From contig VGMY01000002.1 in assembly GCA_016866255.1 (NCBI GenBank), positions 124,001 through 188,000 on the forward strand: 64,000 bases of DNA, in the 5' to 3' direction. Under the pieces are notes generated by a model. It was not told where the DNA came from. It was given only the letters and a program-made list of their open reading frames with translations, and did no database searches. Shown here piece after piece: positions 42,455 to 50,788 of the stretch. The stretch is from Bacteroidota bacterium (GTDB lineage: Bacteria > Bacteroidota > Bacteroidia > Flavobacteriales_D > Crocinitomicaceae). The first letter of the stretch is position 1. The number at the start of each line of letters is the position of its first letter. Made by a program: the position numbers and the translations under genes.

Positions 42455-43288
42455 ATGGCAACAAAAATTCGTCTCCAAAGACACGGAAAAAAAGGAAATG
42501 CTTATTTTCATCTCGTAGCGGCCGACAGCCGGGCCAAGCGCGATGGCAAATTCATTGAAAAATTAGGAACCTACAATCCGGTTTCCAACCCTGCAACAAT
42601 TACCATAAATTTTGATAGAACGCTTTATTGGGTTGGGGTAGGTGCAGAAATGACCGATACAGCTCGGGCGATACTATCGTACAAGGGAGTGTTGTTTAAA
42701 AATCACTTGTTAAAGGGAGTGGCCAAAGGCGCACTAACGCAGGAAGAGGCTACCAAAAAGTTTGACCTTTGGTTACTCGAGAAGGAAAATAAAATCCAAG
42801 CTAAGAAAGATGGGTTGTCAAAGGCCTCGGATAATGAAAGAGCAAATCGATTAAAAGCCGAAATGGAAAGCAACGCAGCGAAAGCAGCCGCCATAGAAGC
42901 CAAAGCGAATGCCATTTTGGAAGAGCCAGTCGTAGCGGTTGATGATGCTGTTGAGATGGAGGAAACTGCTGCTGTTGAGGAAACTGCTGCTGTTGAGGAA
43001 GCGCCTGCTGCTGAGGAAGCGCCTGCTGCTGAGGAAGCGCCTGCTGCTGAGGAAGCGCCTGCTGCTGAGGAAGCGCCTGCTGCTGAGGAAGCGCCTGCTG
43101 CCGAGGAAGCGCCTGCTGCCGAAGAAACCCCTGCTGTTGAGGAAGCGCCTGCTGCCGAAGAAACCCCTGCTGCTGAGGAAGCGCCTGCTGCTGAGGAAGC
43201 GCCTGCTGCTGAGGAAGCGCCTGCTGCCGAAGAAACCCCTGCTGTTGAGGAAGCGCCTGCTGCCGAGGAGGGAGCTTCGGAAGAATAA
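42455..43288 (+). CDS. rpsP: 30S ribosomal protein S16 with long repeat tail
   Basis: 277 residues; S16 proper is about residues 1-85 (MATKIRLQRHGKKGNAYFH, LGTYNPVSNP, GAEMTDTARAILSYKG) and assembles into the 30S body. Residues about 100-165 form a charged, Ala-rich helix, then about residues 169-270 are 17 hexapeptides of the type EEAPAA with variants (EETPAV, EETAAV), encoded by near-uniform 18-bp repeats. Typical S16 is 80-90 residues (Bacteroidota forms often 150-190). Followed 15 bp later by rimM, the usual partner. Confidence 0.92.
   Translation: MATKIRLQRHGKKGNAYFHLVAADSRAKRDGKFIEKLGTYNPVSNPATITINFDRTLYWVGVGAEMTDTARAILSYKGVLFKNHLLKGVAKGALTQEEATKKFDLWLLEKENKIQAKKDGLSKASDNERANRLKAEMESNAAKAAAIEAKANAILEEPVVAVDDAVEMEETAAVEETAAVEEAPAAEEAPAAEEAPAAEEAPAAEEAPAAEEAPAAEEAPAAEETPAVEEAPAAEETPAAEEAPAAEEAPAAEEAPAAEETPAVEEAPAAEEGASEE
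42959..43264 (+). repeat. 18-bp in-frame tandem repeat in rpsP tail (17 units)
   Basis: Seventeen consecutive 18-bp units of the form GAGGAAGCGCCTGCTGCT and near variants. Blocks of identical units (for example seven EEAPAA in a row) suggest slippage or recombination has changed copy number. All units keep the reading frame. Confidence 0.9.
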
Positions 43289-47828: not shown

Positions 47829-47836
47829 TATTTTTG
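47829..47836 (+). promoter_or_regulatory. -7 box for rimO, 6 nt before the ATG
   Basis: TATTTTTG, exact TAnnTTTG, then 6 nt to the ATG at 47843. The in-frame TTG at 47834 is the end of this box. Confidence 0.6.
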
Positions 47837-47842
47837 CAGCCT

Positions 47843-49153
47843 ATGAAAACCAAATCTCATCGCAAGAATAAGATCAACGTGGTAACCTTAGGTTGTTCTA
47901 AAAATACTTTCGACTCAGAAATCATGATGGCCCAACTCAAAGCCAATCGTTTTGAGGTTCAACACGAAGGGCAAGAAGAATCGGAAATCGTGATCATCAA
48001 CACTTGTGGTTTTATCGATAATGCGAAACAGGAATCCATTGATACCATTCTCCAATACGTCGATGCGAAGTCACAAGGTTTGGTGGATAAGGTTTACGTT
48101 ACAGGCTGCCTTTCCGAGCGCTATCGTTCGGATTTAGAAAGCGAAATCCCTGAAGTGGATGCCTATTTCGGCACCCGGGAATTGCCTAGACTCCTCAAAA
48201 CGTTGAAAGCCGATTATAAGCATGAGTTGGTCGGCGAACGGTTGCTCACGACTCCCAACCATTACGCCTATTTCAAGATTGCCGAAGGCTGCGATCGCCC
48301 TTGTTCTTTCTGTGCCATTCCCTTAATGCGAGGCAAACACGTTTCTACTCCCATGGAACAATTAGTGTCCAATGCCCAAGATTTGGCCAAAAAAGGAGTC
48401 AAGGAACTGTTGTTGATTGCTCAAGATTTAACCTATTACGGTTTGGACCTCTACAAAAAACGCAATTTGGCGGAGCTCCTAGTAAAATTATCCGACGTCG
48501 AGGGCATTGAGTGGATTCGTTTGCATTACGCGTTCCCTGCAGGTTTTCCCATGGATGTTCTGGAAGTTATGAGGGAACGTAAAAACGTTTGTAACTACCT
48601 CGATATTCCTTTACAGCACGGTTCCACCGCCATGCTTCAAGCAATGCGCAGAGGCATTACCCGTGAAAAAACTGAGGAATTGTTGGATGCGATTCGACAG
48701 CGAGTTCCCGAAATTGCGTTGCGCACGACCCTCATTTCAGGATTTCCTGGAGAAACGGAAGCAGATTTTGAGGAAATGAAGGGTTTTGTAGAGCGCAGCC
48801 GGTTTGACCGCCTCGGTATATTCACCTACTCTCACGAGGAAAACACCCATGCCTTTCAACTTGCCGACGACGTTCCTGAGGAATTAAAGCGAAAACGTGC
48901 GGATGAAATCATGGAAATGCAAGCGGGAATTAGCCATGCCTTGAACCAACACAAAGTGGGACGAACCTTTAAAACCCTTTTTGATCGGGTGGAAGGGGAC
49001 TATTTTATTGGGCGAACGGAATTTGATTCTCCCGAGGTAGATAACGAGGTGAAGGTGCTTCGCACGCCGGATTTGTACGTGCCTATTGGGGATTTTTCCA
49101 TGGTTCGAATGGTTTCCGCCGAACCCTATGATTTGTTGGGTGAATTAGTTTGA
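47843..49153 (+). CDS. rimO: Ribosomal protein S12 methylthiotransferase
   Basis: 436-residue radical SAM methylthiotransferase modifying Asp of S12. N-terminal MTTase domain with three cluster cysteines C18 (LGCSKNTFDSE), C55 (INTCGFI), C89 (VTGCLSERY); radical SAM C150-x3-C154-x2-C157 (EGCDRPCSFCAIP); TRAM domain at the C-terminus. LGCSKN with DSE is the RimO, not MiaB, variant. Starts at ATG 47843; a TTG three codons earlier lies in the promoter box. Confidence 0.96.
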   Translation: MKTKSHRKNKINVVTLGCSKNTFDSEIMMAQLKANRFEVQHEGQEESEIVIINTCGFIDNAKQESIDTILQYVDAKSQGLVDKVYVTGCLSERYRSDLESEIPEVDAYFGTRELPRLLKTLKADYKHELVGERLLTTPNHYAYFKIAEGCDRPCSFCAIPLMRGKHVSTPMEQLVSNAQDLAKKGVKELLLIAQDLTYYGLDLYKKRNLAELLVKLSDVEGIEWIRLHYAFPAGFPMDVLEVMRERKNVCNYLDIPLQHGSTAMLQAMRRGITREKTEELLDAIRQRVPEIALRTTLISGFPGETEADFEEMKGFVERSRFDRLGIFTYSHEENTHAFQLADDVPEELKRKRADEIMEMQAGISHALNQHKVGRTFKTLFDRVEGDYFIGRTEFDSPEVDNEVKVLRTPDLYVPIGDFSMVRMVSAEPYDLLGELV

Positions 49154-49176
49154 GTACCTTTAATGAAAATTGTACG

Positions 49177-49476
49177 GTGAAAAATATTCTTACTACCGCT
49201 TTTGCCTTCGTTGTTTTAGCCTTGAACTTCGCTTTTGCGCAGCCTGCTTCGCCGTTAACGGTGATCGATGCTTCGAGCCCAAATGCCTGTGATGGATCCG
49301 CTTCGATAACCAATCCAAACAACGTCATTACCAACACCATCGTTTGGTATTCTAGCTTCGGACTAAGTTGTTTTCTGGCAAAGGTTAATTTTGGGATTAC
49401 GAGCGCTGCTCGTTTTCCGGGTGATGGACTCATTCCAAGCATAAAGTCCACCTTGCTATCGCAAGCTTCGGACTAA
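49177..49476 (+). pseudogene. 3'-truncated T9SS-type secreted protein gene
   Basis: GTG at 49177 starts a clear signal peptide (residues VKNILTTAFAFVVLALNFAFAQ, with GTG as Met), then ASPLTVIDASSPNACDGSASITN, which resembles the first repeat-type domain of long Flavobacteriales secreted proteins. About 60 codons later it runs into the 110-bp tandem array, and the frame closes at 49476 after one unit. The expected hundreds of residues and the C-terminal sorting domain are absent, so it reads as a broken gene. An alternative TTG start lies at 49150. The broken state is inference from length and context. Confidence 0.6.
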
Positions 49477-50020
49477 GTTGTTTTCTGGCAAAGGTTAATT
49501 TTGGGATTACGAGCGCTGCTCGTTTTCCGGGTGATGGACTCATTCCAAGCATAAAGTCAACCTTGCTATCGCAAGCTTCGGACTAAGTTGTTTTCTGGCA
49601 AAGGTTAATTTTGGGATTACGAGCGCTGCTCGTTTTCTCGGAAATGGACTCATTCCAAGCATAAAGTCCACCTTGCTTGCGCAAGGTTCGGACTAAGTTG
49701 TTTTCTGGCAAAGGTTAATTTTGGGATTACGAGCGCTGCTCGTTTTCCGGGTGATGGACTCATTCCAAGCATAAAGTCAACCTTGCTATCGCAAGCTTCG
49801 GACTAAGTTGTTTTCTGGCAAAGGTTAATTTTGGGATTACGAGCGCTGCTCGTTTTCCGGGTGATGGACTCATTCCAAGCATAAAGTCAACCTTGCTATC
49901 GCAAGCTTCGGCCTAAGTTGTTTTCTGGCAAAGGTTAATTCTGGGATTACGAGCGTTGCTCGTTTTCCGGGTGATGGACTCATTCCAAGCATAAAGTCAA
50001 CCTTGCTATCGCAAGCTTCG
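49361..50020 (+). repeat. 110-bp tandem repeat, six complete copies
   Basis: Six head-to-tail units starting at 49361, 49471, 49581, 49691, 49801 and 49911, almost identical, with divergence mainly in units 3 and 6. Partial similarity extends to about 50036, where CTTCGG followed by TTGTTTTCT recurs. Each unit contains three inverted repeats: ACGAGC-GCT-GCTCGT (unit positions 39-53), TGGACT/AGTCCA with a 14-nt loop (65-90, perfect only in units 1 and 3) and CTTGC-TATC-GCAAG (92-105). 110 is not a multiple of 3, so it cannot encode a continuous protein repeat. It lies between rimO and tRNA-Lys. Confidence 0.95.
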
Positions 50021-50064
50021 GCCTTTTTTGTTTTCTTCCTCATTAAAGCAAGCTTTATTCGGGG

Positions 50065-50104
50065 AAAACAAAAAAGTCCGCTTCGTACCGAAGTGGACTT
50101 CTTT
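50065..50104 (-). terminator. Rho-independent terminator after tRNA-Lys
   Basis: 12-bp stem with one G-U pair (AAGTCCACTTCG...CGAAGCGGACTT on the minus strand), 3-nt loop, then TTTTTTGTTTT. It begins 7 nt after the 3' end of the minus-strand tRNA. The stem is at 50074-50100. Confidence 0.85.
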
Positions 50105-50106
50105 TG

Positions 50107-50179
50107 TGATTCCGCTGGGATTCGAACCCAGGGCCCATACATTAAAAGTGTATTGCTCTACCAGCTGAGCTACGGAATC
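50107..50179 (-). tRNA. tRNA-Lys (anticodon TTT)
   Basis: Full cloverleaf on the minus strand: acceptor GATTCCG/CGGAATC, D arm GCTC/AGAGC with GG, anticodon stem ATACA/TGTAT around loop CTTTTAA (anticodon TTT), 5-nt variable loop, and T arm CTGGG-TTCGAAT-CCCAG. Discriminator A at 50107; CCA is not encoded. 73 nt in all. Confidence 0.97.
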
Positions 50180-50194
50180 GCTGATTTGAGGGTG

Positions 50195-50223
50195 CAAATA
50201 TAGGTATTTTTTTCCATAAGCAA
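50195..50223 (-). promoter_or_regulatory. Promoter of tRNA-Lys (TTG -33, TATATTTG -7)
   Basis: Minus strand: TATATTTG at 50195-50202 (exact TAnnTTTG) with TTG at 50221-50223, 18 bp apart. The box ends 15 nt before the tRNA 5' end. Confidence 0.6.
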
Positions 50224-50234
50224 TTTTCATTCAT

Positions 50235-50242
50235 TATTTTTG
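50235..50242 (+). promoter_or_regulatory. -7 box for aroK, 6 nt before the ATG
   Basis: TATTTTTG, exact TAnnTTTG, followed by 6 nt and the ATG at 50249. The in-frame TTG at 50240 is the end of the box. Confidence 0.6.
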
Positions 50243-50248
50243 AAGTGT

Positions 50249-50788
50249 ATGTTTAAACCCTTGTGTTTAGTTGGTTTGATGGGGAGTGGTAAATCAACCT
50301 TAGCTGCTACGGTAGGCGAAACTCTTGGTTGGAAGGTCCTTGATACCGATCGTTGGATTGAGGAGGAAGAAAAAAATTCAGTTCAACAAATAGTTGCTGC
50401 CAAAGGATGGGAATATTTTCGGGAAAAAGAGTCCGATTTCTGCCGTAATTTTAAAACTACAGGCCCTTGTCTTATATCAACCGGAGGAGGATTTCCTATG
50501 AGCCCATTCAATTTTCAATGGTTGTTCGATCACGCCTTAACCGTTTACCTCCAGGTTTCTCCTGAAATTGCAGCTGAACGCATTTCCCGACAAGAATCTT
50601 TGCTTCCCGGTTCGCGCCCGCTAATGGGAGGGCTTAATAGTAAGGACTTATTAAATAAGCTCAGGAAATTGTATTGGGAGCGCGGTCCGATTTATGAAAA
50701 ATTTCCATTTTCTGTCAATGCCGATGCACCGCTGGATCAGGTAGCTGAGGCGTTAGTAAAGATCTCGGCGATAGCCCAAACTGAATAA
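50249..50788 (+). CDS. aroK: Shikimate kinase
   Basis: 179-residue kinase of the shikimate pathway. P-loop GLMGSGKST (9-17), the shikimate-binding DTDRWIEEEE segment, FREKESDFC (adenine/lid region) and STGGGFPM. ATG at 50249, chosen because a TTG nine bases earlier lies inside the promoter box. 3' end overlaps the outer-membrane protein gene by 36 bp convergently. Confidence 0.94.
   Translation: MFKPLCLVGLMGSGKSTLAATVGETLGWKVLDTDRWIEEEEKNSVQQIVAAKGWEYFREKESDFCRNFKTTGPCLISTGGGFPMSPFNFQWLFDHALTVYLQVSPEIAAERISRQESLLPGSRPLMGGLNSKDLLNKLRKLYWERGPIYEKFPFSVNADAPLDQVAEALVKISAIAQTE

Follow-up and report, generated by a model that had tools for sequence, protein, structure and literature searches.

The window, i.e., the whole stretch of 64,000 nucleotides analysed here, contains a tandem array of short units between a rimO-like gene and a tRNA-Lys gene. 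The rimO-like gene is an ORF at 47834-49153 with matches to UPF0004, Radical_SAM and TRAM, and a shikimate kinase gene is located beyond the tRNA-Lys. The neighbours of the array encode CotH, radical SAM/TRAM, shikimate kinase, WbqC and signal peptidase proteins. No recombinase is present among these neighbouring genes, as the initial annotation had stated, and none of the three Phage_integrase matches of the source genome lies on contig C2. At the edge of the array, a secreted-protein gene is cut short. Its truncated ORF agrees in 14 of 15 residues (TNPNNVITNTIVWYS) with an ORF at the tRNA-Lys locus of genome G007 right up to the array edge, and the G007 counterpart continues for about 320 residues past this point, which bears out the earlier reading of a gene interrupted by the array. 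Elsewhere in the window, at 42969-43269, there is an 18-bp tandem repeat of 16.7 copies (CTGCTGCTGAGGAAGCGC), whose period is a multiple of 3.

The array has a period of 110 bp, with 6.2 copies, 95% matches and no indels in the TRF analysis, in line with the six near-identical units described before; the copy number of six is taken from one assembly. A protein repeat is ruled out, as had been argued from a unit length that is not a multiple of 3, by the period of 110 and by the lack of a long ORF through the array. The covariance model R1, built from 16 units, matches each of the six units. The features of the locus are the following:

49150..49356, plus strand: 5′ remnant of the secreted-protein gene, truncated at the array edge (ORF; match to the longer G007 ORF)
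49354..50036, minus strand: tandem array, 6.2 copies of the 110-bp unit, each with a T2 hairpin, a conserved core and a T-arm-like stretch (TRF; six R1 matches)
49388..49481, minus strand: unit 6, most distant from the tRNA (R1, 96.4 bits)
49498..49591, minus strand: unit 5 (R1, 93.9 bits)
49608..49701, minus strand: unit 4, the most divergent, 94% identical to the consensus (R1, 93.8 bits; BLAST)
49718..49811, minus strand: unit 3 (R1, 93.9 bits)
49828..49921, minus strand: unit 2 (R1, 93.8 bits)
49938..50031, minus strand: unit 1, closest to the tRNA and the sole copy in which the A/T run CAAAAAAGG is retained ahead of T2 (R1, 98.4 bits; sequence)
49943..49968, minus strand: T-arm-like stretch of unit 1, GGA, AA, the hairpin ACGAGC-AAC-GCTCGT and AATCCC (sequence; helix support on 40 units weak)
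50045..50056, minus strand: spacer hairpin S (AAAGCAAGCTTT) between T1 and T2, within the inverted repeat 50024-50035 / 50064-50075 (sequence; T1/T2 complementarity in related elements)
50074..50100, minus strand: T1, a terminator-like hairpin directly 3′ of the tRNA-Lys (terminator scan; similar hairpin in relatives)
50106..50179, minus strand: tRNA-Lys(TTT), the host tRNA (ARAGORN; Rfam RF00005)

The array is thus placed on the tRNA-Lys strand and starts 74 bp behind the tRNA. In the terminator scan, T1 is reported with 12 pairs on the plus strand and as a 5-pair part on the minus strand.

A BLASTN search of the unit consensus against its own genome, a check proposed in the initial annotation, finds six places, all of them inside the window array; identity to the consensus is 100% in two copies, 99% in another two, 97% in one and 94% in one. 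Plain BLAST therefore finds one array in this genome, and covariance models add two others. The first, on contig C7, lies behind tRNA-Arg(TCT) and consists of 3.8 copies of 110 bp (TRF). The second, on contig C31, is a more distant array that runs into the contig end, with 3.9 copies of 111 bp, R2 model scores of 26-33 bits and no tRNA called there. In addition, a single element behind tRNA-Arg(TCG) on contig C3 carries a 29-bp copy of the tRNA end (L083). The units of the window array are near-identical to each other and unlike the units of the other arrays in the same genome.

The family is dispersed, as had been supposed for a family of intergenic elements. At E<=0.05, R1 finds a match in 54 of the 86 genus genomes, among them the source genome; the other 32 are without a match, some of which may be hidden by strict filters and incomplete genomes. 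The 150 units listed, out of a larger number of matches, come from 39 genomes and form 98 clusters, for which the tRNA positions were taken from the tRNA rows of the genomes concerned and a few ARAGORN positions. Among these listed units, 72 of the 98 clusters start no more than 400 bp behind a tRNA-Lys or tRNA-Arg gene on the same strand, and in 66 of the 72 the distance is 73-80 bp, a range that includes the gap of the window array. The hosts of the 72 clusters are tRNA-Lys (28), Arg-TCG (22), Arg-ACG (14) and Arg-TCT (8). Nine further clusters of listed units are found 0.4-10 kb behind a Lys or Arg tRNA. The remaining 17 were at first without a tRNA; three were then placed 76-77 bp behind a tRNA-Arg (G020:C8, G025:C31, G065:C298), ten are at contig ends with no tRNA on the contig, and four have none in the DNA examined (G025:C33, G084:C26, G099:C3, G106:C54). 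The periods inside the clusters of listed units range from 83 to 246, with 110 as the commonest. The position and the strand of the array, together with the copies of tRNA 3′ ends in relatives, are explained by a link to tRNA genes. The earlier reading, which stood as regards a dispersed family and local amplification, had missed this link. The family may also explain some of the assembly breaks beside tRNA-Lys and tRNA-Arg in this group.

The full form of the element is about 165-175 bp long. Read on the tRNA strand, it comprises the tRNA 3′ end or half, T1, the spacer hairpin, T2, the motif TATGCTTGGAWTGA and the T-arm-like stretch with its hairpin, and it stops at AATCC. In relatives, the T-arm-like stretch consists of, e.g., GGTTC or GGGAAA, after which come a hairpin AYG..CRT and finally AATCC. 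The hairpins T1 and T2 are matched to each other: T1-T2 complementarity is 13.8 within the same element vs 9.5 between different elements, and none of 2000 random pairings is as high (38 non-redundant elements, kinship ignored). Other right ends are seen as well. In a second family, CTTATAAAAGTTAGATTTTTCGACC or a related sequence precedes the 3′ end of tRNA-Arg; it borders islands at L094, L102, L141, L249 and L252, among them the one of 10 kb with defence-like genes. A third, TCCACTGCACGTCG..AATGGGATCTTTAATCCCAGC or similar, occurs behind tRNA-Lys at L019, L029, L031 and L035. Beyond the unit in G025 (L016 438-1048) there are other tandem repeats, with a period of 162-212 and GGACTCC..GGAGTCC hairpins, and similar DNA is present in G007.

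In complete forms, AATCC is the start of a second copy of the host tRNA's own 3′ end. Examples of such copies are 21 bp long in L051 and 29 bp in L083. An exact 16-nt copy of the tRNA end lies within 1 kb downstream at 15 of 91 Lys/Arg loci, and 14 of these 15 copies end 163-174 bp behind the tRNA; upstream or in antisense, none was found at any of the 91 loci. The tRNA-end copies are neither general in the family nor special to it, because 76 of the 91 loci are without an exact 16-nt copy, whereas such copies accompany 7 of the 21 other tRNAs at these loci. Related end families are located at tRNA-Ser in L009 and L246. Behind a tRNA-Pro (L045 600-960, G004), tRNA-Arg-like partial copies are arranged in tandem.

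In the window, the AATCCC of unit 1 is the start of a tRNA 3′-end copy whose remainder is absent there. Throughout the array, the tRNA end is reduced to AATCCC(A) and T1 is missing; there is no long tRNA-end repeat and no cargo. Because the units keep only AATCCC(A) and are without T1, the copies are probably a local amplification of the part from T2 to AATCC, not six complete insertions. Local amplification, as had been proposed from near-identity, agrees also with the difference from the other arrays of the same genome and with the unit number at tRNA-Lys, which varies between relatives. For instance, G108 has two units where G025 has one.

The hairpins of the unit were already noticed in the initial annotation. 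A single unit folds better than chance on the minus (tRNA) strand, with z = -2.40 and 4 of 200 shuffles as good, but hardly so on the plus strand, with z = -1.10 and 22 of 200 shuffles as good. Across 40 related units, 97.5% of the cells of the named structure (T2, T-arm hairpin, GG/CC) are paired, in an alignment (A3) whose units were found with the structure-bearing R1 and which is thereby biased towards the R1 structure. Cells changed on both sides number 70 vs 18.2 in shuffles (0/500 as high). Two of the five summary measures, the pairs with double changes (7 vs 5.9, 140/500) and the pair types (13 vs 15.3), are not above shuffles. By helix, the covariation covers 6 of 7 pairs in T2, 1 of 3 in the T-arm hairpin and none of 2 in GG/CC, and RNAalifold on its own predicts T2 only from the same 40 units. 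The support is therefore located almost wholly in T2.

Such a fold raises the alternative that the units are a structured small RNA, released by read-through of the tRNA-Lys and processing, like RttR behind E. coli tyrV, and kept for function with mobility as a secondary trait. The z score of the minus strand, the compensatory changes, which are mainly in T2, the location behind a tRNA and the annotated E. coli RttR at the same relative place all speak for it. On the other hand, the tRNA is separated from the units by the terminator-like hairpin T1, 32 of the 86 genus genomes gave no match (some possibly hidden, as mentioned above), and hairpins are also expected in DNA substrates of recombination. 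In the stretch 49000-50300, no Rfam family except tRNA reaches the gathering score, and in the units of 12 related loci only tRNA and one SRP do so, which rejects a known RNA family as the identity of the unit and weighs against this alternative as well. We consider the small RNA unlikely, and it is the strongest of the competing explanations.

The sequences of the elements themselves are informative about their history. For this purpose, 56 hand-picked elements were compared from the tRNA end to the ATGCTTGG motif, with two G099 loci entered twice. Some pairs of elements behind different tRNAs are 93-98% identical, while identity is 72-79% between their host tRNAs and, at about 0.5, no higher than for unrelated DNA in the 250 bp upstream. 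An example is the element behind Arg(TCG) in G066 compared with that behind Arg(ACG) in G025, with identities of 0.98 for the element, 0.73 for the tRNA and 0.49 for the upstream region. Element identity between the same two kinds of tRNA is also 0.98 for G022 Arg(TCG) and G020 Arg(ACG), 0.97 within G020 and 0.94 for G006 Arg(TCG) and G320 Arg(ACG), the latter from another genus; within G015, a cross-tRNA pair reaches 0.93. The near-identity across Arg(TCG) and Arg(ACG), in spite of dissimilar tRNAs and unrelated upstream DNA, points to movement. Among the best 45 pairs, all near-identical ones are of this Arg(TCG)-Arg(ACG) kind, with no pair that links Lys or Arg(TCT) to a different tRNA. Inheritance in place also contributes, because mean identity is higher for same-tRNA pairs across genomes (0.73, n = 413) than for different-tRNA pairs inside one genome (0.67, n = 31); for different-tRNA pairs across genomes, the mean is 0.65 (n = 1094). 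At the tRNA-Lys of G061 and G025, the upstream DNA is alike (0.90) and the DNA past the last unit is common to both, and G061 has an extra element beside the tRNA. No circular form or excision was seen.

The next explanation in rank dispenses with movement altogether and assumes a tandem duplication of the tRNA 3′ region together with gene conversion between tRNA loci. It would account for the greater average likeness of same-tRNA pairs, for the restriction of the near-identical cross-tRNA pairs among the best 45 to Arg-Arg and for the local expansion of arrays. However, it is improbable: the best cross-tRNA pairs (0.93-0.98) offer little homology for conversion, because the host tRNAs are only 72-79% identical and the upstream DNA is at the unrelated level, and the cross-genus pair of G006 and G320 and the extra G061 element between shared flanks argue against it too.

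In some relatives, 1-10 kb of genes, part of them defence-like, are located between the tRNA and the unit, and the window array is without such cargo. In L103, a 2-kb insertion with a 603-aa ORF is flanked by long direct repeats that start from AATCC and comprise the end of the tRNA as well as the native terminator. A 10-kb island between two units in L102 has ResIII/Mrr_cat_2, VRR_NUC, DUF4379/CapR, DUF4238 and AbiEii matches. Two units also enclose a Fic protein in L250, a secreted FG-GAP protein in L104 and a 148-aa ORF in L092, and RNase_T and HNH proteins lie between tRNA-Arg and the unit in L249. A further Fic protein precedes the unit in L252, where the stretch examined has no tRNA, and the efflux genes in L248 may be ordinary chromosome. 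In G099, tRNA-Arg(ACG) and a unit are 45 kb apart; a serine recombinase of 533 aa lies directly next to the tRNA, and both ends of the stretch carry CCTGACAAGGTCAC.

Several enzymes were considered as the moving factor, which was not found. Tyrosine integrases were rejected as helper: 20 of the tyrosine-recombinase loci listed are near tRNA-Ser, Asp, His, Asn or no tRNA, and G099:C3 is the single one of the 20 with an R1 unit (39.8 bits, plus a doubtful one of 18.1), at a distance of 10 kb from the recombinase. The integrase of 286-304 aa beside an ORF6N-like gene was rejected as well, with a best R1 E-value of 0.096 in L123, L134, L135 and L140. By eye, this tyrosine integrase follows the ORF6N-like gene in G000:C36 (L133) and L136, and in some genomes it is followed by a cassette sequence of integron-type appearance. 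Large serine recombinases are present in 13 of 28 R1-positive vs 5 of 22 R1-negative genomes (p = 0.14; 50 high-quality genomes, kinship ignored). They lie beside tRNA-Arg in four genomes, with an R1 unit at one of the four islands; in the three other loci, R1 was not seen in the examined parts, the far ends being outside the examined DNA. Given no significant association with R1 and this single island, the large serine recombinase was rejected as helper.

Serine integrases at tRNA genes seem unusual. At 13 of 20 loci read, the large serine recombinase match is at the 3′ end of a tRNA-Arg, tRNA-Met, tRNA-Gln or tmRNA gene, and all 11 of those with a called ORF have it overlapping the RNA gene and pointing in its direction. 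In L258, L280, L281 and L282, the recombinase gene contains a motif AAGGTT[A/T]GAACTCG that is similar to the T-arm of the tRNA-Arg beside it; the A/T of the motif agrees with the tRNA in three of the four loci and disagrees in L282. A phage copy of the element was likewise rejected: pattern scans of viral contigs gave one match, in coding DNA of a phage-like contig, which is taken as chance.

A Y1 (RAYT-type) transposase that moves REP-like repeats would fit the hairpins, and Y1_Tnp is found more often where R1 matches strongly than where it does not match (17 of 28 vs 4 of 22 genomes, Fisher p = 0.004; kinship ignored). Nevertheless, 11 of the 28 R1-positive genomes are without Y1_Tnp, and it has no match in the source genome (G000, 93.95% complete) or in G020, despite the intragenomic pair of 0.97 in the latter. 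To our knowledge, tRNA-end copies of 16-29 bp are not expected from Y1 enzymes, and this explanation is quite improbable. An artefact of the fragmented assembly is very improbable: the source genome is in 50 contigs and 10 of the 98 clusters of listed units are at contig ends with no tRNA on the contig, but the window contig continues through the array, and the family recurs in independently assembled genomes, where its sequences and copy numbers differ.

The explanation that we favour, and consider likely, is that the array consists of small, non-coding, non-autonomous, tRNA-targeting mobile elements, locally amplified in the window. Its basis is formed by observations: the position, the strand, the anatomy, the tRNA-end copies in some loci, the near-identity across Arg(TCG) and Arg(ACG) and the cargo beside units in some relatives. 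The mobile reading is not put higher because the near-identical cross-tRNA pairs among the best 45 are all Arg-Arg. According to the proposed mechanism, a site-specific recombinase provided in trans would join the right end of the element to the T-loop of the tRNA. The element would thereby supply a new tRNA 3′ half and a terminator, so that the tRNA would stay functional. In the window, unequal recombination or slippage would then have multiplied the part from T2 to AATCC to six copies, leaving out T1 and the half of the tRNA. As a rule, a mobile element at the 3′ end of a tRNA measures kilobases and encodes its own integrase. The present element is gene-less and approximately of the size of an attachment region, yet near-identical copies stand behind different tRNA-Arg genes, one of them in another genus. 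If the mobile reading is true, it would set a new lower limit for an integrative element and show a way in which islands of genes, in some cases with defence functions, may start.

The family extends beyond the genus. Across the order, R1 finds matches at E<=0.001 in 33 of 299 genomes, of which five belong to other genera, and across the phylum, the model R2 finds matches in 10 of 395 genomes at E<=0.001, of which two are in the genus. The loci of five of the eight non-genus genomes were read. The full architecture is present behind tRNA-Ser(TGA) with a four-unit array (L289), behind tRNA-Pro with tandem units, the last of which ends in the exact 19-nt tRNA 3′ end (L288), and behind tRNA-Ser(GCT) (L291). 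In L287, T1-S-T2 is present with no tRNA call, and L293 looks spurious. The first units of L288, L289 and L291 are located 74-82 bp behind the tRNA, a spacing that gives independent support, because a model match with E near 1e-4 carries little weight by itself. In named genomes, the core pattern is present in 16 stretches: 14 are in records labelled as Flavobacteriales or taxa within that order, and the other two, candidates only, are in one Thermobrachium and one Helicobacteraceae record. More tentatively, and with less likelihood than the mobile reading of the window array, there may be a phylum-wide class of gene-less integrative mini-elements behind tRNA genes. Such elements would have two matched terminators around a hairpin and a right end that mimics a T-arm, would depend on a recombinase in trans and would pile up in tandem as landing pads that collect defence and other genes; the E. 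coli tyrT repeats would share this lifestyle.

No description of the element was found in the open-access literature, a scope that leaves subscription papers mostly outside. The closest known repeats are those of E. coli tyrT/tyrV (annotated rttR, tpr), known since the 1970s, for which the favoured reading, if true, would provide an explanation. Like the window array, they consist of tandem units immediately 3′ of a tRNA gene and in its orientation, and they share the AATCC boundary. As measured here, the tyrT region has a period of 178 bp and 3.1 copies; exact 19-nt tRNA-Tyr 3′ ends from AATCC are present in tyrT/tyrV at four places besides the own ends of both tRNAs, and an inverted repeat (such as GCGCGCAGCGC, by eye) lies shortly before AATCC. 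The E. coli units carry a long tRNA-end copy from AATCC, in contrast to the bare AATCCC(A) of the window units, and long copies are seen at 15 of 91 related loci. Moreover, R2 finds nothing in the E. coli region at E<=1. We know of the tyrT repeats at one tRNA only, and of no spread to other tRNAs and no cargo. RtT RNA (RF00391) is absent from the 14 matches at E<=5 in 49000-50300 and has no gathering-score match in 12 related loci. MITEs and REP/BIME elements are also small, non-coding, hairpin-bearing and non-autonomous, but the family described here has a fixed place and strand behind tRNA genes and, in some loci, tRNA-end copies at its boundary.

Two gene-bearing systems are comparable in other respects. 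In the additive flexible genomic islands of Ca. Methylopumilus, repeats of the last 20 nt of tRNA-Lys, in varying number, precede islands of 330 bp to 42 kb (PMC10872708). The likeness lies in the repeats of the tRNA-Lys 3′ end, and tRNA-end repeats that bound cargo are seen in relatives here; the islands differ in that they bear genes, and the consulted portion of the source mentions no hairpin unit of 110-175 bp (PMC10872708). Tycheposons, described in the same portion as elements of 4-200 kb with a tyrosine recombinase, cargo and insertion at tRNA genes (PMC10872708), resemble the family in the insertion at tRNA genes and in cargo, whereas the unit of the window array is below 200 bp and no tyrosine recombinase is present at the tRNA end. 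Partial tRNA copies at the boundaries are found at those same 15 of 91 related loci, and of such a copy the window array retains AATCCC(A).
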